A stretch of DNA of 64,000 nucleotides from Microlunatus endophyticus. GTDB taxonomy: Bacteria; Actinomycetota; Actinomycetes; Propionibacteriales; Propionibacteriaceae. Location of the stretch: assembly GCF_014646195.1 (NCBI RefSeq), contig NZ_BMMZ01000002.1:620001-684000 (forward strand). The letters run 5' to 3'. The notes under the pieces were generated by a model, which saw nothing but the letters and a program-made list of their open reading frames with translations, was not told the DNA's origin and did no database searches. The translations under genes were made by a program, and so were the position numbers. This document shows positions 2,446-10,665 of the stretch, piece by piece; the stretch's first letter is position 1; the number at the start of each line of letters is the position of its first letter.

Positions 2446-3315
2446 TCATCCCACCACGTCGACGTCGCTGTTGATTTCGCGACCGATGTCGCCGACGGAA
2501 TCGCCGGCGGTCTCGCTGTCGCCGACGACCACCAGCACCCGGCCGTGGACGTGGATCACATCCACCCGGTGTCCGTAGAGGCGGCTCAGCACCGGGGTGG
2601 TGATCACTTCCTCGGTCGTGCCGGATGCTGCGCGCCCTCCGGCGAGATAGACGATCCGATCCATCACCGGTAGCAGCGGATTCATCTCGTGCGCCGAGAG
2701 CAGGATCGCAATCTGCTGTTCGCGGGCGATCCGGGCCAGCAGTCCGACGACCTCGTGGGCACTGCCCAGGTCGAGGTTGGCCAGCGGTTCGTCCAGCAGC
2801 AGCAGATCCGGCCTGCTGACCAGCGCATGAGCGATCAGGATCCGTTGCTGTTCGCCACCGGAGAGCTCACCCACCCGGGCATTGGCGAAGCGCGATGCAT
2901 CGACCGCAGCCAACATCTCGTCGACGAGCAGCCGCCGCCGCCGTGACGGCAGCCCGATCCCGAAGCGATGTCCGTCCATTCCCAGACCCACGACATCGCG
3001 AGCACGCAGCGGGACATCGGGCTCGAGGAGCACCTTCTGGGGGACGTAACCGATTCCGCTGCGACCGCGACCGGTGCGCGTCAGCCGTACGCTTCCCCTC
3101 GTCGGACGTTGCAGGCCGAGGATGACGCGCAACAGCGTGGTCTTGCCGGCGCCGTTGGATCCGATCAGGCCGGTGAACTCACCCGGCCTGACCTCGAATC
3201 CCACCTGATCGAGGATCGTCCGTCCGCCGAGTCGTACGTCGACGCCGCTGACACTCAGGAGAGCCTCCGACCCGCAGGCTCTCCTCGCGACGTCGTCGAC
3301 CACGCTCTGCGTCAC
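2446..3315 (-). CDS. znuC: Zinc ABC transporter ATP-binding protein (ZnuC-like)
   Basis: A 289-aa ATPase that powers the two permeases. It has Walker A GSNGAGKTT, a Q-loop in GYVPQK, the ABC signature LSGGEQQR, Walker B LLLLDEP and the H-loop LLSAHEM. The start is set at a GTG whose bases overlap the TGA stop of the substrate-binding gene (GTGA overlap); the frame stays open upstream, but that part lies inside the previous gene. The domain begins around residue 19 with LLSVSGVDVRLGG. The C-terminal tail (about residues 225-289) carries HRVDVIHVHG and acidic stretches, as in many zinc and manganese ABC ATPases. Expression should follow znuA and its upstream Zur-like operator. Confidence 0.9.
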   Translation of the reverse strand: MTQSVVDDVARRACGSEALLSVSGVDVRLGGRTILDQVGFEVRPGEFTGLIGSNGAGKTTLLRVILGLQRPTRGSVRLTRTGRGRSGIGYVPQKVLLEPDVPLRARDVVGLGMDGHRFGIGLPSRRRRLLVDEMLAAVDASRFANARVGELSGGEQQRILIAHALVSRPDLLLLDEPLANLDLGSAHEVVGLLARIAREQQIAILLSAHEMNPLLPVMDRIVYLAGGRAASGTTEEVITTPVLSRLYGHRVDVIHVHGRVLVVVGDSETAGDSVGDIGREINSDVDVVG

Positions 3316-4355
3316 AGCTTCTCGGTCGAAGTGCCGTTGGCGATCGCCTTCTTGATCGCTGTCAACTCGGCCAGCATCCACGACTGGTAGGTGTAGCCGT
3401 CCGTGGGCATCGTCTCGTACACCCCGACCACCGGAACGCCGGCCGAATGCGCTTGACCGAGGAACTTCGTGGTGATGTCGTCGGTCACCTGCTGGTTGTA
3501 CAGGAACACCTTGACCGACTTGTTCTTGAAGAGCGAGTCCTGGGTGGCGATGTCCTGGGGTGCAGGATCGGTGTCGTTCATGATCGCCGCCTGCATGCTC
3601 CACGGTGTCTTGTTGTCCAGGCCGGACGCATCGATCAAATAGTCCGCAACCGGCTCTGTGACCGCAACCCCGGTCCCGCCGTACTGTTTCTTGAATGTCT
3701 CCATGGCATCAGTCCAGGTCTTCATCGAAGCCAGGAACTTCGTCTGCTGGTCGTGGAAGTACGACGCATGGGCCGGCTGCAGTGCCGACAGGTCACCCAC
3801 CAGCTCCTTCGCGACGGCGGGCATCGTCTTCGGGTCGTACCACAGGTGCGGGTTCGGGGTGTTGTCCGGCAGACCACGCAACTTCTGCACGTCGATCACC
3901 TTCCGGTCCGCGTTCGGCGAGGCCTTCTCGATCTTGTTCATGAAGTCGTCGTAGCCGATTCCGTTCTGCACGACCAACGAGGCGGCCTGCACGGTCTTGG
4001 CGACATTCGCCGAGGCTTCGAAGGTGTGCGGATCGGTGTTCGGATTGCTCATGATCGACGTCACTTCGACATACTGGCCGCCGATCTGGCTGATCACATT
4101 TGCATACTCGTTCTCAGCACCGACGGCGATGATCTTGTCAGCCGTGCCGGTCGGCGTGCTGGACACGGGTGCATTGGGAGCAGCGGCGCTGCTTGCCGGA
4201 GCGGAGGGCGGATCCGACGACGGTGCGGAGGAGGCCCCCGAAGTCGTCGTGGTGTTCGAGTTGCTACAGGCAGCCAATAGGGCAGCCCCGGCGATCAGCG
4301 CCACGATCCCGGCGCCGCGCGTCCGCCCGTTGTGTGCAGTCATCAATGCATCCAT
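3312..4355 (-). CDS. znuA: Zinc ABC transporter substrate-binding lipoprotein (ZnuA-like)
   Basis: A 347-aa cluster A-1 solute-binding protein anchored as a lipoprotein. The signal peptide ends in the lipobox LLAAC, followed by a Ser/Thr/Pro/Ala linker. Metal-site elements are visible: NTDPHTFE (first His), NPHLWYDPK (second His) and acidic residues near the C-terminus. The long His-rich loop of some ZnuA proteins is absent. The chosen ATG has a weak GGA 5 nt upstream; other in-frame ATGs lie at 4343 and 4388. It is the first gene of the importer operon. A palindrome at 4399-4416, about 45 bp upstream, is the likely Zur operator. Mn(II) rather than Zn(II) cannot be excluded from sequence alone. 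Confidence 0.87.
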   Translation of the reverse strand: MDALMTAHNGRTRGAGIVALIAGAALLAACSNSNTTTTSGASSAPSSDPPSAPASSAAAPNAPVSSTPTGTADKIIAVGAENEYANVISQIGGQYVEVTSIMSNPNTDPHTFEASANVAKTVQAASLVVQNGIGYDDFMNKIEKASPNADRKVIDVQKLRGLPDNTPNPHLWYDPKTMPAVAKELVGDLSALQPAHASYFHDQQTKFLASMKTWTDAMETFKKQYGGTGVAVTEPVADYLIDASGLDNKTPWSMQAAIMNDTDPAPQDIATQDSLFKNKSVKVFLYNQQVTDDITTKFLGQAHSAGVPVVGVYETMPTDGYTYQSWMLAELTAIKKAIANGTSTEKL

Positions 4356-4398
4356 TCCACGTTCGTGTTGACACTGTCTTGTTGACACTGACTTTCAC

Positions 4399-4446: not shown

Positions 4447-5457
4447 TCAGCTGCAGTAACGCTGCAAGCGCTCGACGCCTTTCGGCGCTGCCGGACCTCC
4501 GCCAAGCAGCGCCTGGTCGAGTCGCCGACGGACCTCTGGTTCGTCCCAACCGAAACCGATAGCCACGATCTGGCTGAGCGACTGCCGGCTGACGGCCCGC
4601 CGCCCGGGTGCCGGTGCGACATGGATCGCCCGTCCGACACGATTGATCACGTAGCGCCGCCGGCTCAGCGACCCGTCGCCTGCGACGGTCACGACACCCT
4701 TGATCCGGTACGCACCGTCAGGAGGATTCTCGAGCAGGTCGACCAGCGCCGACGGATCGACGACACCGGCCGACTCGACTGCGACGGACCTCGCCGGCGG
4801 ATGACGGTGGACGACGCTTTCGCTGCGCGGGAGTTCATCCTGGCGGGTGACCACATCCCGTATCCGTGGTTCGAAGAGAACCAGAGGATCCAACGCCCCC
4901 TGTGTAGTTTCGATGATCGGGACGGAAGCGTTGACCGCCCGGACCGCCGAAGTGACCCGCTCGATCGCCGCGCGACGCTCTGCGGGGGCCAGCAGATCGA
5001 TCTTGTTCAGCACCACCAGCGAGTCGGCTGCGAATCGGTGCGGGCCGGTGCTGCCGAGCGTGCGCTCACAGGCGGTCAAGTCGACGACCTCGACGATCCC
5101 CGCCGGCCGGACGGCACCGACGGCCGTACTGCGCACCAACCGGGCCAGTGCCGTCGGCTCGGCGATTCCGCTGGCCTCGATGACGATGACATCCAACGCG
5201 AGCCGCGGCACGGACAGCCGCGACAGTGCCGCGTCGAGGTCGCCGCTGTCGGGCAGGCAGCACAGGCAACCTCCGGCGATCGAGGCCGGATCGTCGATCT
5301 GTCCACGGACCAGCCCGGCATCGACGTTCAGCGCTCCGAAGTCGTTGACGACGACGCCGATCCGGGCGTCGGAGTGCCGAAGCAGGTGATTGAGCAGTGT
5401 CGTCTTGCCGGCACCGAGACAGCCGGCCAAGGTGACGACCGGGACGGGAGGTCTCAC
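4447..5457 (-). CDS. COG0523 (CobW/ZNG1-like) metallochaperone GTPase
   Basis: A 336-aa G3E GTPase. Walker A is GCLGAGKTT at 12-20, the metal-binding CxCC motif is GGCLCC at 62-67, and the base-specificity motif is NKID in LVVLNKIDLL. The C-terminal CobW_C domain follows (about 240-336), with FGWDEPEVRRRLDQALL near the end. Members of this family hand metal, often zinc, to client enzymes when it is scarce, and are frequent Zur targets. It begins 13 bp after the stop of the second Zur-like gene and runs in the same direction, so both are probably transcribed from the promoter near 7140. Unlike its neighbour at 5966-7117 it keeps every nucleotide-binding motif. Confidence 0.87.
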   Translation of the reverse strand: MRPPVPVVTLAGCLGAGKTTLLNHLLRHSDARIGVVVNDFGALNVDAGLVRGQIDDPASIAGGCLCCLPDSGDLDAALSRLSVPRLALDVIVIEASGIAEPTALARLVRSTAVGAVRPAGIVEVVDLTACERTLGSTGPHRFAADSLVVLNKIDLLAPAERRAAIERVTSAVRAVNASVPIIETTQGALDPLVLFEPRIRDVVTRQDELPRSESVVHRHPPARSVAVESAGVVDPSALVDLLENPPDGAYRIKGVVTVAGDGSLSRRRYVINRVGRAIHVAPAPGRRAVSRQSLSQIVAIGFGWDEPEVRRRLDQALLGGGPAAPKGVERLQRYCS

Positions 5458-5470
5458 CGGCCGGCCGGCT

Positions 5471-5890
5471 TCAGTTGGCGGCAGCCAACTCCTGCTCCCG
5501 CAGCTTGCGCCGGCAATCCGGGCAGCGACCGAAGATCTCGATCGTGTGGCTGATCAGGGTGAAGCGCTTGCGGCGGGCGATGGACTCCACCCACTCCTCG
5601 TGTTCGGGACCGATCTCGATCGTCGTCCCGCAGTCCACGCAGACCAGGTGATGGTGGTGTTCGTCGCTGCATGAGCGGTACAGCTGCTCTGCCCCGCTCA
5701 TCTGGATCGTGTCGGCGGCACCGGATTCCGCGAGGTCGTTGAGATTGCGGTAGACCGTCGCGAGACCGACCGGATTGCCGCCCTGACGGAGCCGGGCGTG
5801 CAACTCCTGGGCGCTGACGAAGCCCCTGCAGTCGGCCAGTTCGGCCTCGATCAGGGCTCGTTGCTGTGTGTTCCTGCGGCGCGGCGCCAT
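5471..5890 (-). CDS. Fur-family regulator, Zur-like (paralogue 2)
   Basis: A 139-aa Fur-family protein. The winged helix is at about 10-72 with LATVYRNLND as recognition helix. A His cluster HHHH (78-81) and CxxC pairs C84/C87 and C123/C126 provide the regulatory and structural metal sites. The start is fixed by a strong GGAGG 7 nt upstream of the ATG. The protein resembles paralogue 1 in layout but differs at most surface positions. It lies between the two COG0523-type genes in one direction, 75 bp after the P-loop-less one, and probably belongs to their operon, which would make it zinc-regulated itself. A second sensor with a different threshold or operator preference is one reading; a different metal (Fur-like) is another. 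Confidence 0.83.
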   Translation of the reverse strand: MAPRRRNTQQRALIEAELADCRGFVSAQELHARLRQGGNPVGLATVYRNLNDLAESGAADTIQMSGAEQLYRSCSDEHHHHLVCVDCGTTIEIGPEHEEWVESIARRKRFTLISHTIEIFGRCPDCRRKLREQELAAAN

Positions 5891-5965
5891 CCTTCCACCT
5901 CCAGCAGCAGAGCCTACCCGCCGATCGTGCCGCACCGGGTCGCGTCGCAAGATCGCTGGGGACGC

Positions 5966-7117
5966 TCACCACAGCCGCGCCCGCTCCCCCAGCCATGGGT
6001 CGAGGCCGTCGTCGCCGAGCTGCCAGGCCGTCTCCCCCAGCATCAGCTCCTCATCGGTCAGCAATGCTCGCTCGAACGCGTTCCGTACCTCGCGCGGGTC
6101 ACCGTCGATGCCGGTGATCACCAGATAGGTCTCGGGTGGTCCGGTCCATCGTCCCGCCGGCCCAATGCTCAACTGGCCACCGGCACCGTCCCACGCGCAG
6201 CGCAGCCCGGGCCGGGTCGGCAGCCAGAACCGTCCTCGGCCGCGCAGTCTGCCGGCACCGAGCCGTCCGAGTTCGACCTGCAGCCGGTACGGGGAGAACG
6301 GCCGGTCCGACTGCAACTCGACCGACCAGATCCCCAGCCGATCGGGAGCACCGGTTGCCATCGCGAACGACGGATTGCCGCGCCAGAAGCCTTCCAGGTC
6401 GCCGCAACCACCGGCGATCCTGAGATCGTCGTCGATCGCTCGCGGCTCCAGCAGCTTGGTGCCGTCGGTCCGGTGCAACTCGGTCCAGCTGGCCCGGCCG
6501 CCGACCAGGTGGTCGAGGGCAGTCGCGACGCGTGGTGGCGCCGCGGTCTCGAAGACGATCCGGTCGGCGAACTCGATCTGGTGCACCAGGCACTCACCAA
6601 CAGCGCGCCGATCCAGCTCGCCATGGCTGAGCCCCCGTTCCACCAGGAGGTCATCGCCGAACAGATCGTCCTCCAGCGACTGGCTGTCGATCGCGACCAC
6701 GACCTGGGCGATCCGGAGCAGCTCCGGCTCAGCCGACGCCGCGTCAACGAGAGCCTTCACGATCTCGGCAGGTTCGACGGCCGGCGGGAGCGACAGCAGG
6801 ATCGGACGGCCGCGTTCGCCCCAGTGTCTCAACGTCGGGACGATCTCATCGGCCAGACTGCAGCAGACACAGTCGTGCCGCATCGGCACCAGCACGTCGT
6901 CGACGACTCCGGTGATGTCCGAGACGGTCCGCCGCAACAAGGCCTGCTCGATCAGTACCTGATAGCTGAGCTGGACGCCTGTCGGCAGATCGATCAGCAG
7001 GCTGCCCGTGGCTGCGACCCGGAGGGCATCGGTCAGCGCACAGATCGTGATCACCGGCGACGGGCCGTCGCGCTGTCCGGTGGCCGCGAAATCTGGCCGC
7101 AGGTCATCTGGCGACAT
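5966..7117 (-). CDS. COG0523-like protein without a P-loop
   Basis: A 383-aa relative of CobW/YciC proteins. The CxCC metal motif is intact (RHDCVCCS, C83/C85/C86), and a CobW_C-like C-terminal domain ends with VITGIDGDPREVRNAFERAL. The place where the Walker A loop should be (about residues 26-36) reads ALTDALRVAAT, with no GxxxxGK[ST], so GTP hydrolysis is unlikely. ATG 7117 is chosen over 7138 because CAGGAG sits 5 nt upstream. It is divergent from a zinc-independent bL36 gene and shares a Zur-like palindrome with it. Mycobacterial Mrf, which recruits a hibernation factor to zinc-free ribosomes, is also a COG0523-related protein beside alternative ribosomal protein genes. A similar role here is inference. 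Confidence 0.75.
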   Translation of the reverse strand: MSPDDLRPDFAATGQRDGPSPVITICALTDALRVAATGSLLIDLPTGVQLSYQVLIEQALLRRTVSDITGVVDDVLVPMRHDCVCCSLADEIVPTLRHWGERGRPILLSLPPAVEPAEIVKALVDAASAEPELLRIAQVVVAIDSQSLEDDLFGDDLLVERGLSHGELDRRAVGECLVHQIEFADRIVFETAAPPRVATALDHLVGGRASWTELHRTDGTKLLEPRAIDDDLRIAGGCGDLEGFWRGNPSFAMATGAPDRLGIWSVELQSDRPFSPYRLQVELGRLGAGRLRGRGRFWLPTRPGLRCAWDGAGGQLSIGPAGRWTGPPETYLVITGIDGDPREVRNAFERALLTDEELMLGETAWQLGDDGLDPWLGERARLW

Positions 7118-7157
7118 GAGCACTCCTGTCCCTGGCATTCGGGAATGATTATGCTAT

Positions 7158-7172
7158 TGAGAATATTTCTCA
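7158..7172. promoter_or_regulatory. Zur-type operator between divergent operons
   Basis: TGAGAATATTTCTCA is a perfect 6+3+6 inverted repeat and close to described actinobacterial Zur boxes. It lies between the COG0523-like gene (minus strand) and rpmJ (plus strand), in an unusually A/T-rich 60-bp gap, so it could control both operons. The extended right half TTTCTCATTAGTA recurs at 9521-9533. Confidence 0.7.
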
Positions 7173-7200: not shown

Positions 7201-7323
7201 ATGAAGGTCCGCAACTCACTCAGGACGCTCAAGAACAGGCCGGGCGCGCAAGTCGTCAGGCGTCGCGGTCGGATGTTCGTGATCAACAAGCGCGATCCCC
7301 GCTTGAAGGCGCGCCAGGGATGA
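7201..7323 (+). CDS. rpmJ: Ribosomal protein bL36, zinc-independent (C-) form
   Basis: A 40-aa protein beginning [20 protein letters not shown] and ending [12 protein letters not shown]. This is the alternative bL36: the zinc-ribbon Cys and His residues of the housekeeping form are absent. Such paralogues replace the zinc-containing protein in ribosomes when zinc is short, releasing or saving zinc, and are classic Zur targets. A near-perfect AGGAGG lies 6 nt before the ATG, and a Zur-like palindrome lies 29 bp upstream. The stop overlaps the next ATG (ATGA), so the flavoprotein gene downstream is translationally coupled. No other alternative ribosomal protein genes (bL28, bL33, bS14, bS18) are visible beside it. 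Confidence 0.9.
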
Positions 7324-8506
7324 GGGCAGCCGCGCCCAGCAGATCATCGGTGCGACGGCCTCGACCACGGGCCCGTCGGCTGCCGCGAAGTCTCGACTGT
7401 CTGGTGGTCGGAGCTGGCCCAGCAGGTATCGGAACTGCGCTGGCTCTGGCATCGATACCCAACTTGACGACCGGAATCGTCGAGCGCGGTGAGATCGGCC
7501 AGACATTCATCGACTGGCCACATGATCAACGGTTTCTCACACCATCCTTCACCGGCAACGGATTCGGGGCCACGGACCTGAATGCGGTCCACCCTGACAC
7601 GTCGCCGGCGTTCTCTCTCGGTGTCGACTATCCGGACGGGCTCGCATACGCCCGGTATCTGAGCGCGGTGACCGAACACTTCGGGATCCAGGTGTCGTCG
7701 GGAACCGAGGTCCTTACGGTGCGACCTGACGATCATGCATTCCGAGTCGACACCGACCGGGCCCGATCCGCGCCCGGTGCCTGGTCTGGGCAGGTGGCGA
7801 ATTCGCCGATCCCGCAGCCACGCGCATCGCCGGAGCCGAGTTCGCCATCCACAACAAGTATCCCGACGCCTGGAGGCCACCGGACCAACCAGGCCGGCTG
7901 GTGGTCATCGGCGGCTACGAGTCCGGTATGGACATCGCCTGCCACCACGTGGCATTGGGCAACCGAGTGACCGTGATCGATCCCGGCCACCCGTGGAAGG
8001 CAGAAGCAGGCCGAGGCGCAGGTTCGGATCCGTCCTATCTACTTTCCCCGCGCACCAGAAGCCGACTGGCAACGGCTCTGGGGACGGGCCGGCTGAAGCT
8101 GAGTACCGGTCGGGTGGCGGTGGTGGCTCCCGACGGCGATGGGCACGTCGTCAGCACGACCTCGGGGACGCGTTACCGATCCGATCTGCGGCCGGTGCTC
8201 GCGACCGGATTCGGTCCCGGACTCGGCCCGGTAGCCCCGTACTTCGCCAAGCGTCCTGACGGTTGGCCGGTGCTGACCGATGACGACGAGTCCACCAGCA
8301 CACCGGGGCTCTTCCTCAGCGGGCCGAGCGTGCGGCACGTCGATCTCCGGTTCTGCTTTGTCTACAAGTTCCGTCAGCGCTATGCACAGATCGCCAAGAC
8401 GGTCGGGGAACGCTTCGGTCGGGACATCAGCGGGTTGGACTTCTGGCGGGCGGCGGGGATGTGGACCGAGGATCTCGGCTGCTGCGGCGTCAGTTGTGCA
8501 TGCTGA
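7320..8506 (+). pseudogene. YpdA-like FAD/NAD(P) oxidoreductase, frameshifted
   Basis: A two-dinucleotide-fold flavoprotein split over two frames. The first part starts at ATG 7320 (overlapping the rpmJ stop) and has the FAD motif GAGPAGIG (31-38), then GQTFIDWPHDQRFLTPSF, reminiscent of the bacillithiol-disulfide reductase YpdA and flavin monooxygenases. At about 7756-7766 the coding potential moves to another frame: VDTDR continues as GPIRARCLVWAGGEFADP, then the second nucleotide motif VVIGGYESGMD. One missing G in the run CCGGGCCC explains the break. The C-terminus is Cys-rich (DLGCCGVSCAC), suggesting metal or thiol chemistry. The following permease gene starts before its stop, so the two products probably work together. 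Whether the break is real or an assembly error is open. Confidence 0.75.
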
Positions 8507-9510
8507 GTACAGGACCAACTGATCGCGATCCGGCCCGGGAGGAGTTGCTGCCGGGCCGGATCGCCCCGCTGCTCGCGGCGGCGGTCGTGGTCGGGAGTGG
8601 CATCGGCATTCTGCTGCCTGGGCTCGGCCAGCAGGCCGGCAGGCTGCTGCCCCCGACCGTGCTCCTATTGGTGACCGCACTTTTCTTCGAGGCCCGGCTG
8701 GATCTGCGTGGAGCGCTGCGCGCCTGGCGGGTCGTCGGCCCCGCATGGTCAGTCAACTTCGGGCTGGTGCCGGTCCTGGCGTACGTGATCTCAAGCACCT
8801 TCGTCGGACGTGAGCTTGCTGCCATGCTCGGGCTCTTCATCTATTTCGCGGCGCCGTGCACGGACTGGTTCCTCGGCTTCACACGGATCGCCGGCGGCAA
8901 CATCGTCGCCGGATCGGTATTGCTGCCGATCAACATGGTCACCCAACTGGCCGCCTATCCGCTGATGTTGTCGATCTTCTTCGGACATCGCTCCGGCAGA
9001 GTCCCGGATGTCGGATTCACGGTGCTGATCTGGTTCGCTCTGCCGTTCGTCGCCGCCCGACTGGGCCGCATGGTCGCGGCTTCCACCTCGGCTTCCCTGC
9101 AGGCGCGACTGACGCGTCGCGCGGGGAGGCTGGTGCCCTGGGTGATCACGGCGCTGATCATCGAGATCTTCGGGGCCAACGCCCAGACGATCCTGGCTCA
9201 TTTTCGGATCTTCATCTGGTGCCTGGTGGCGGTCTTCAGCTTCTTCGTGATCATCTTCTTCATCGGGGAACTCGTCGGTCGGGCTTGCCGGCTCGACCGC
9301 GGCGACCAGGTTCTGCTGACGATGACGACGTCTGCCCGCAACGCCCCACTGATGCTTGCAATCACCACAGTGGCCATCCCGGGCGAGCCGCTGACCTACG
9401 CGGCGATCGTGATCGGCATGCTCATCGAGTTTCCCCATCTGGTGGCCGTCAGCACACTGCTCCGCCGGCGCGGGTCTGTACATCGCGTAGTGGTTCGCCG
9501 TATGATTTGA
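8500..9510 (+). CDS. SBF/ACR3-like permease
   Basis: A 336-aa membrane protein with about ten hydrophobic segments. It belongs to the bile acid:Na+ symporter (SBF) superfamily, near the arsenite-efflux-like branch; the segment FAAPCTDWFLGFTRIAGGN in the middle of the protein is typical of that branch. The start is the ATG at 8500, which overlaps the 3' end of the flavoprotein gene. Gene order and probable Zur control with zinc-free bL36 suggest a role in the zinc-starvation response. The substrate (oxyanion, organic acid or a metallophore product) cannot be told from sequence. A second Zur-like palindrome follows directly after its stop. Confidence 0.72.
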   Translation: MLSTGPTDRDPAREELLPGRIAPLLAAAVVVGSGIGILLPGLGQQAGRLLPPTVLLLVTALFFEARLDLRGALRAWRVVGPAWSVNFGLVPVLAYVISSTFVGRELAAMLGLFIYFAAPCTDWFLGFTRIAGGNIVAGSVLLPINMVTQLAAYPLMLSIFFGHRSGRVPDVGFTVLIWFALPFVAARLGRMVAASTSASLQARLTRRAGRLVPWVITALIIEIFGANAQTILAHFRIFIWCLVAVFSFFVIIFFIGELVGRACRLDRGDQVLLTMTTSARNAPLMLAITTVAIPGEPLTYAAIVIGMLIEFPHLVAVSTLLRRRGSVHRVVVRRMI

Positions 9511-9533
9511 TAATAAGAATTCTTCTCATTAGT
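9511..9533. promoter_or_regulatory. Orphan Zur-like operator
   Basis: The sequence holds the perfect core AAGAATTCTT (9515-9524) and the half-site TTCTTCTCATTAGTA. Its last 13 bp match the right half of the 7158-7172 operator (TTCTCATTAGTA shared exactly). It starts at the stop codon of the permease gene and precedes a 180-bp stretch without a convincing gene, then an aldo/keto reductase. Either the reductase is controlled by it or the original target gene has been lost. Confidence 0.5.
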
Positions 9534-9714: not shown

Positions 9715-10665
9715 ATGCTGACCCGCCCGTTCGGCCGAAGCGGCCTCGTCGTTGGACGACTCGCACTAGGTACCTGGACCTTCGGCGAACAGACCCCCGC
9801 AGAAGATGCTGCCCAACAGATCCGCACGTTCTTCGACGCCGGCGGCACATTAATCGACACTGCCGACGTGTACGCCGCAACCCGGAGCGAGTCGATCCTC
9901 GGGGAGATACTGAGCTCATACGACCGGGATAGTTTCGTCCTGGCGACCAAGGCATTCGGCCGGACCAAGCCCGGTCCGATGGGCGAGGGCCGATCACGAG
10001 GCCACCTCCTATCGGCCCTGGACGCGTCACTGCGACGGTTACGTGTCGACTACCTGGACCTTTGGCAAATACATGCCTACGGAGGGACCGCTGTCCCGGC
10101 CGAGGAGACCTTGGCAGCACTCGACACAGCCGTCGCCTCCGGCAAGGTCCGCTACGTCGGCGTCTCGAACTACCGAGCCTGGCAACTCACCTTCGCCGCG
10201 ACCCGGCAATCACTGACCCGACAGCCCCCAATCATCTCCAACCAAGTCGAATACTCACTGCTCAAACGAGAACCGGAAAACGAACTCGTCGACGCAGCCG
10301 ACTTCCTCGGCGTTGGGATCCTCGCCTGGTCCCCGCTCGGACGAGGCGTACTCACCGGCAAATACCGCTCCGGAACCCCCGAAGGATCCCGCGCCGACAC
10401 CCCGCAGTGGAAAGACTTCGTGAACCCGCTGATCGGCGGCCCATCCGATCAGATCGTTGACGCCGTCACTGACGCCGCCAACGAACTCGGGACCAGCCCA
10501 GCAAACGTCGCTCTCTCCTGGGTCCGTGACCGGCCAGGCGTGACAGCGCCCATCATCGGAGCACGCACCAACGAACAACTGGTAGCCAACCTCGAAAGCG
10601 AGAGCCTCACCCTCCCGACCGAGATCGCCACAAAGCTGACGGCCCTATCATCGAGCGCGGCCTAA
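9715..10665 (+). CDS. Aldo/keto reductase
   Basis: A 316-aa TIM-barrel NADPH oxidoreductase of the AKR family. The catalytic tetrad is in place: D48 and Y53 (LIDTADVY), K79 (ATKAF) and H120 (LWQIHAYG). The cofactor end reads GVTAPIIGARTNEQL. The frame is open about 150 bp upstream, but that part has no family similarity; ATG 9715 begins directly at the first conserved strand. It follows the orphan Zur-like palindrome by about 180 bp, and it is uncertain whether they are connected. The physiological carbonyl substrate is unknown. A second, unrelated AKR lies at 25949-26866. Confidence 0.87.
   Translation: MLTRPFGRSGLVVGRLALGTWTFGEQTPAEDAAQQIRTFFDAGGTLIDTADVYAATRSESILGEILSSYDRDSFVLATKAFGRTKPGPMGEGRSRGHLLSALDASLRRLRVDYLDLWQIHAYGGTAVPAEETLAALDTAVASGKVRYVGVSNYRAWQLTFAATRQSLTRQPPIISNQVEYSLLKREPENELVDAADFLGVGILAWSPLGRGVLTGKYRSGTPEGSRADTPQWKDFVNPLIGGPSDQIVDAVTDAANELGTSPANVALSWVRDRPGVTAPIIGARTNEQLVANLESESLTLPTEIATKLTALSSSAA

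Follow-up and report, generated by a model that had tools for sequence, protein, structure and literature searches.

A cysteine-tailed flavoprotein and its exchangeable transporters form a probable Zur-regulated module at a zinc locus of Microlunatus endophyticus

Regulons of the zinc-responsive regulator Zur include zinc importers, COG0523 chaperones and zinc-free ribosomal proteins. Here we analyze a 64,000-nucleotide (nt) stretch of the actinomycete Microlunatus endophyticus (contig NZ_BMMZ01000002.1, positions 620,001 to 684,000; hereafter the window), in which three consecutive plus-strand genes encode a cysteine-free ribosomal protein bL36, a flavoprotein with a cysteine-rich tail and a permease of the SBF fold. 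A preliminary description of this triad had presented it as an undescribed Zur operon, possibly for a thiol- or metallophore-related redox step coupled to transport. Comparison with related loci leaves us with little doubt that the flavoprotein and its transporter form a real and conserved module, probably regulated by Zur through predicted boxes, and the pairing of this enzyme with exchangeable transporters may point to a redox step in zinc supply that has not been described.

The first gene of the triad (7201–7323) encodes the zinc-free C- paralogue of bL36 (rpmJ2), as had been proposed. Its product scores 75.4 bits against the NCBIfam type-B L36 model NF002021 (cut-off 70), bears the bL36 signature, has lost the zinc ligands and contains no cysteine, and a cysteine-bearing bL36 paralogue is encoded elsewhere in the genome. 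A third L36-like match, of 46.3 bits, lies at G000:C9:177117-177230. The flavoprotein gene begins with an ATG (7320) inside the bL36 stop codon, and is read in two parts: a 5' part encoding the half that binds flavin adenine dinucleotide (FAD; 7320–7764, Pyr_redox_3 positions 1–121 of 305), and a 3' part in a shifted frame encoding the second half and the cysteine tail (7765–8506, positions 121–305), in which codons 8480–8503 translate to CCGVSCAC. Because the ATG of the permease gene (8500–9510; Pfam SBF) precedes the flavoprotein stop codon (8504–8506), these two genes also overlap, and the tight packing first described for the three genes is borne out at 7320–7323 and 8500–8506. The permease is ACR3-like and carries a PCTDW motif with Cys133 (codon 8896–8898).

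The flavoprotein gene of the window is not a single open frame. The frame of 7320 runs to about residue 148 and the remainder lies in another frame, with a net loss of one base near GGGCCC at 7759–7764; each half is otherwise uninterrupted, and the two align to complementary portions of Pyr_redox_3. The tail is as originally read, in the window only across this frameshift. The gene is open throughout in two relatives from the same genus, G125 (locus L005) and G041 (L006), and G125 has an intact triad with the same bL36/flavoprotein overlap as the window. The sequence alone fits either a mutation or a sequencing or assembly error, and an intact enzyme may not be made in this genome. We rejected programmed −1 frameshifting, as no slippery heptamer was found by eye and the frames of L005, L006, L027 and L018 continue uninterrupted across this site. 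A second broken copy occurs in a Bacillus sp. (L066:9998-11053), where an internal TAA removes the cysteine tail.

A profile scan returned 551 stretches, 478 of which encode a relative of the flavoprotein; the best 80 of these, together with five plasmid loci (L011–L015) and two genus relatives (L016, L017), make up the 87 neighborhoods compared below. The search patterns excluded the tail, and the ranking favors full-length matches. With the window included, 81 of 88 proteins, archaeal ones among them, carry the whole C-terminal CCx3-4CxC, while six lack the first cysteine and one, whose frame holds a stop, lacks the tail. In an alignment of 64 of the 80 loci (A2; 12 near-duplicate or broken loci and four without the script's motif were omitted), the cysteine of an FCFxYK motif and three tail cysteines are invariant, and the other tail cysteine is nearly so. 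The tail is also present where no SBF or FeoB-like gene follows (L048, L049, L055, L057, L061, L062, L067; other followers are possible), leading us to reject the idea that it is kept only through overlap with the start of the next gene. In a structural model of the L027 protein from Microlunatus parietis, the mean predicted local distance difference test score (pLDDT) is 92.1 and that of the last ten residues is 57, suggesting that the tail is perhaps mobile.

The flavoprotein gene is usually accompanied by one of two kinds of transporter. An SBF permease gene adjoins it at 37 of the 87 loci (35 directly downstream, and directly upstream in L048 and L049), and a FeoB-like gene at 35 (33 downstream by rule, and two by eye: L011, behind an S14 gene, and L078, at 159 nt, out of 17 loci to which the rule had given neither label); none of the 87 has both next door. 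References for these labels came from the window and L006/L017 for SBF, and from L011 and L013 for FeoB-like. The SBF type is confined in this set to actinomycetes, at 37 of their 38 loci, confirming that the flavoprotein–permease pairing of the window is kept in actinomycetes, and the FeoB-like type occurs in the actinomycete L047 and, elsewhere in the phylum, in L069 and L076. On a 95-row tree made by a quick method, the partner label requires two changes; the broken protein of the window, L066 and L063, whose frames hold a stop or are split, and L113 and L116 (apparent duplicates of L076 and L069) were left off.

Both kinds of transporter hold conserved cysteines. Cys133 of the PCTDW motif is kept in 38/38 SBF proteins. 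A permease alignment, A3, took in 27 of 35 prepared ranges. The FeoB-like proteins share three cysteines in 33/33 sequences and the cysteines of a CxxC in 27/33 and 29/33, a count that omits four fragmentary or distant rows. The model of the window's SBF protein (pLDDT 90.5) has an ASBT-like fold, with template-modeling scores (TMq) of 0.63–0.77 to bacterial ASBT homologues. FeoB_N and Gate domains are present in three of four FeoB-like members and Gate alone in L101, and the four score 66–122 bits against the FeoB model TIGR00437, below its cut-off of 315.65. That two unrelated folds with conserved cysteines replace each other beside a cysteine-tailed enzyme suggests a single thiophilic substrate, most simply Zn2+.

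Wider surveys link the SBF subfamily to the flavoprotein. Within its own genus the flavoprotein family is present in four of 20 genomes, and the SBF subfamily in exactly the same four; a sample of the GTDB family gave strong flavoprotein matches in 3/147 genomes and weak partial matches in four more. Among 201 Corynebacterium genomes, three encode the flavoprotein and exactly the same three give strong full-length SBF matches. One further genome, G785, holds a 105-residue SBF fragment (55% identity) and no flavoprotein match, and 14 others have SBF matches of at most 34% identity, presumably true ACR3. The SBF subfamily therefore seems to be reserved for the flavoprotein. Among 396 evenly drawn Actinomycetota genomes, 11 others proved to carry the family, with a FeoB-like gene within 0.4 kb in 10 of the 11 (one convergent) and Azt-type ATP-binding cassette (ABC) genes nearby in six; two of the 11 loci look already present in the 87-locus set.

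The family also occurs on plasmids. Of 538 matching records, 499 are Klebsiella plasmids, and one listed record (H91) has a nucleoside-recognition (FeoB-like) gene at the flavoprotein match. On haloarchaeal plasmids (L011:6257-10652 and L015:6272-10637), genes for a COG0523 GTPase, the flavoprotein, a short S14 protein and a FeoB-like protein stand together, indicating that the module crosses domains.

A predicted Zur box, TGAGAATATTTCTCA, lies upstream of the triad at 7158–7172, in a 62-bp gap between divergent genes, and differs from the consensus used at one position. Its 6-bp inverted arms are perfect around a 3-nt core; over its whole length the two strands differ at three of 15 positions, so the perfect palindrome described earlier does not hold. 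Allowing three mismatches, TGAGAATATTTCTCA matches the window four times, at two sites read on both strands, versus 0.17 matches expected from shuffles. By sequence match, then, a putative Zur operator precedes the triad, and across the whole 5.09-Mb genome only three sites come within two mismatches of TGAGAATNATTCTCA, two of them at this locus, as against none for the reversed pattern. Beyond this genome, 28 of 38 actinomycete loci have a site within two mismatches of TGANAATNATTNTCA no more than 400 nt ahead of the FAD motif; such a site occurs in 69 of 5,762 stretches drawn at random from these loci and in one of 1,900 after shuffling, and the 38 whole loci contain 56 box matches and none to the reversed pattern. 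In Bacillota, a Bacillus-type box marks 11 of 14 operon starts versus 123 of 3,947 random stretches, with 56 matches in the whole loci against 13 for the reversed control, one more mismatch being allowed. Many of the loci are closely related, and the locus counts are therefore not independent events.

Genes labeled as zinc-related lie within 10 kb on either side in 55 of the 87 stretches, or in 50 of 82 when L011–L015, which supplied references, are left out; these counts have no control set. The labels rest on COG0523, ZigA/MRF-like, Zur/Fur, bL36, S14, bL33, AztB/C/D and CysS references, and ZnuC and AztA labels were not counted because both match ABC ATPases in general. In L057, L061 and L068 the flavoprotein gene stands in a single row with zinc ABC genes, COG0523 genes or both. 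A cysteine-free bL36 is encoded at 19 loci besides the window, directly before the flavoprotein in seven, and at 18 of the 19 it has a divergent ZigA/MRF-like neighbor no more than 250 nt away. The predicted Zur control and the zinc-gene association hence reach beyond this genome. Proteins with a CobW_C domain that are related to the MRF/ZigA group occur, for example, in the window (5966–7138), at L021:7568-8617 and at L019:8643-9704, and the one facing bL36(C-) may belong to the handling of C- ribosomes. FolE2 is another zinc-sparing enzyme, and a protein that by eye resembles it is encoded near the module at L066:13549-14442.

Across the box from the triad, the minus strand of the window carries a series of zinc-acquisition genes. 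Nearest is the CobW_C protein related to MRF/ZigA (5966–7138), which scores below both equivalog cut-offs, followed by a Fur-family regulator that we presume to be Zur (5471–5950; PF01475, with 32 bits against the NCBIfam Zur model, below cut-off), a COG0523-type G3E GTPase (4447–5457; PF02492 and PF07683), a ZnuA-type binding protein (3312–4388; PF01297), a ZnuC-type ATPase open reading frame (2446–3603; PF00005 at residues 131–275), whose true start is probably further in, near 3255, and two ABC-3 metal permeases (652–1515 and 1515–2435; PF00950). Lying in the gap between the divergent units, the box can serve this series and the triad alike. A second Zur-like box, two mismatches from the consensus, sits right after the permease gene (9514–9528) and ahead of a gene for an aldo/keto reductase (9718–10662), which may also be zinc-controlled.

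We propose that the triad is transcribed as one unit that Zur, by binding the predicted boxes, represses until zinc runs short. In such a unit bL36(C-) would replace the zinc-binding ribosomal protein, while the flavoprotein and permease would constitute a separate two-part module, most related loci having no bL36 directly in front. The transporter would import a thiophilic divalent metal, Zn2+ being the likeliest. On the cytoplasmic side the flexible CCx3-4CxC tail, kept reduced via FAD by the reduced form of nicotinamide adenine dinucleotide phosphate (NADPH), would pick up this metal and hand it to COG0523 GTPases or apo-proteins. As a whole we hold this model of the tail as a zinc acceptor tentatively, as a possibility that could easily prove wrong, and in M. 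endophyticus itself the broken flavoprotein frame may have disabled the module, unless the break is a sequence error. A bolder version, an unlikely one in our judgment, makes this an NADPH-driven redox step of zinc acquisition, in which a tetra-cysteine arm recharged by FAD takes Zn2+ from plug-in importers and passes it to COG0523 chaperones, the PCTDW carriers of ACR3/BASS fold and the cysteine-rich FeoB-like carriers being new families of zinc importers.

Several observations weigh against a zinc-acceptor role. A box at the cut-off is missing from 10 of the 38 actinomycete loci and lies right upstream in only four of the 11 from the even Actinomycetota draw, and 32 of the 87 stretches have no zinc label, the labels being without a control set. 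At 15 of the 87 loci no labeled partner is next door, although in L091 a FeoB-like gene lies 2 kb off in inverted orientation and 12 of the 15 bear a zinc label (for example L012, L057, L061, L062, L068 and L084; none in L055, L070 or L095). The module is rare, present in 12 of the 396 evenly drawn Actinomycetota genomes and, in the phylum of G609 (the Bacillus of L066), in one of 398, which is G609 itself (E up to 1e-40). The window's own flavoprotein copy is frameshifted, the ACR3-type partner belongs to a group of carriers that are classically exporters, and the low pLDDT of the modeled tail may indicate merely a floppy end.

The explanation closest to the thiol-redox idea of the preliminary description is that the enzyme repairs thiols: an NADPH disulfide reductase whose tail, as in high-molecular-weight thioredoxin reductases, shuttles electrons, here to the zinc-ligand cysteines of apo-proteins or to a low-molecular-weight disulfide, with the transporter acting as a zinc importer or thiol carrier. 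The fold makes a thiol-redox step plausible, since the bacillithiol disulfide reductase Bdr/YpdA, alike in fold and domain order, is the second-best relative of the flavoprotein in both fold and sequence (TMq 0.74 for the L027 model; E 1.7e-29), and the invariant FCFxYK and tail cysteines would suit such chemistry. All five intact relatives scored nonetheless miss the YpdA/Bdr cut-off (TIGR04018, 59–112 bits versus 339.9, with 59 for L005; in the window the 5' half scores 34 bits and the 3' half has no match), as they miss every other NCBIfam cut-off. The cysteine after GxGP is catalytic in Bdr; the position of the B. cereus Bdr cysteine after GGGP is alanine in 64/64 A2 rows and serine in L052, L074 and L089, outside A2, and the tail is an addition relative to Bdr/YpdA. 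The label YpdA-like is therefore apt for the fold and fails for the family cut-off and the GGGP cysteine. There is also no clear reason to pair a general thiol reductase with a transporter, and the family spans Archaea, Bacillota and Actinomycetota, which use different thiols. On balance we regard thiol repair as rather unlikely. As for the metallophore part of that idea, no metallophore genes are labeled, no dedicated search having been aimed at them.

Alternatively, the pair could remove or expel soft metals and metalloids (Cd, As, Hg, Cu) that leak through de-repressed zinc importers, joining a MerA-like tail to an ACR3-like permease. Among NCBIfam models the permease is nearest to TIGR00832 (acr3), and ACR3 carriers have a conserved cysteine in a PC motif, here retained as Cys133; the flavoprotein is weakly similar to the ArsO monooxygenase, and MerA ends in a CC pair. 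All these models are far below cut-off, however: 49.3 and 46.6 bits versus 282.8 for acr3, 25–58 versus 425 for ArsO (NF040505, five relatives) and 26 and 33 versus 454.45 for MerA (TIGR02053). MerA is a flavin enzyme with a C-terminal cysteine pair and resembles ours in a works-like sense only, as there is no CxxC among the invariant residues of A2, and the PCTDW motif sets the permease apart from ACR3/BASS carriers (bass, 40.8 bits versus 326.3). The permease had been expected to move anions or arsenite; it passes no curated NCBIfam family for either, only the broad Pfam SBF. The alternative FeoB-like partner, whose known relatives are importers, and the predicted control by Zur further make such protection improbable. 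No ars or mer genes are labeled next door, where the labels cover zinc references alone. We consider quite improbable a role in tailoring small molecules, in which an N- or S-monooxygenase makes or recycles a zinc-chelating metabolite moved by the permease. The nearest solved relative, 3D1C, is annotated as a putative flavin-containing monooxygenase, the L005 protein passes Pfam Lys_Orn_oxgnase (29.5 bits, cut-off 21.3) though with 293.8 bits for Pyr_redox_3, and SBF-fold carriers often move organic anions. Yet a FeoB-like partner is ill-suited to an organic substrate, a cysteine tail is no known monooxygenase feature, and no biosynthetic genes were recognized nearby, where no search was directed at them. 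We would be equally surprised if the triad were a decaying relic, in which bL36(C-) and perhaps the permease alone still matter: the one-base frameshift relative to G125 would fit, but with both halves otherwise open and the permease intact any decay would be recent, and a G/C run is a usual site of sequencing error. A defense role was rejected, PADLOC giving a single weak LeoA match (27.7 bits) to a FeoB-like protein and none for the L005 flavoprotein or permease.

If the zinc-acceptor model is correct, a redox enzyme with a conserved cysteine tail of metal-binding type and exchangeable transporters, kept with zinc genes from haloarchaea to Actinobacteria, would mean that zinc entry or hand-over costs NADPH, and the two partner types suggest that zinc may be a substrate of some ACR3/BASS and FeoB superfamily members.

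Two characterized zinc responses invite comparison. In C. glutamicum, PMC2823685 reports cg0795, also listed in PMC6103462, as a Zur-repressed oxidoreductase gene divergent from the COG0523 gene cg0794 (yciC), with Zur operators and binding. The arrangement resembles that of our loci; given the rarity of the flavoprotein family in Corynebacterium, cg0795 may be another enzyme. We did not accept it as a proven member, its exact operator being absent from all 201 Corynebacterium genomes, among which the C. glutamicum strain was probably not sampled. As to the module itself, we found no description of a flavoprotein–transporter pair in searches of an open-access library, and term look-ups in PMC2770081, PMC5387054, PMC11340326, PMC13339975 and PMC7174638 returned none. 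The claim that the triad is undescribed stands in that respect and fails for the flavoprotein, which has a solved homologue and a probable precedent in S. aureus.

That homologue is the S. aureus structure 3D1C (NP_373108.1), for which we found no function. It matches the family profile over its full length (E 8.2e-116), through its own CCx3CxC tail, and is the best Foldseek match of the L027 model (TM scores 0.89/0.91); full-length similarity and the C-terminal CCx3-4CxC place the flavoprotein in the same type. The source of 3D1C is S. aureus Mu50, and by its locus number NWMN_2483 is probably the corresponding gene. NWMN_2481–2483, listed in Table 1 of PMC5480029 as 43-, 83- and 152-fold up with calprotectin, encode a COG0523 GTPase, a hypothetical protein and an FAD disulfide oxidoreductase, like kinds of genes side by side. 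This calprotectin-induced operon is thus probably of the same family, and the zinc-acceptor model, if true, would give a role to the orphan structure 3D1C and probably also to strongly zinc-induced genes of unknown function.

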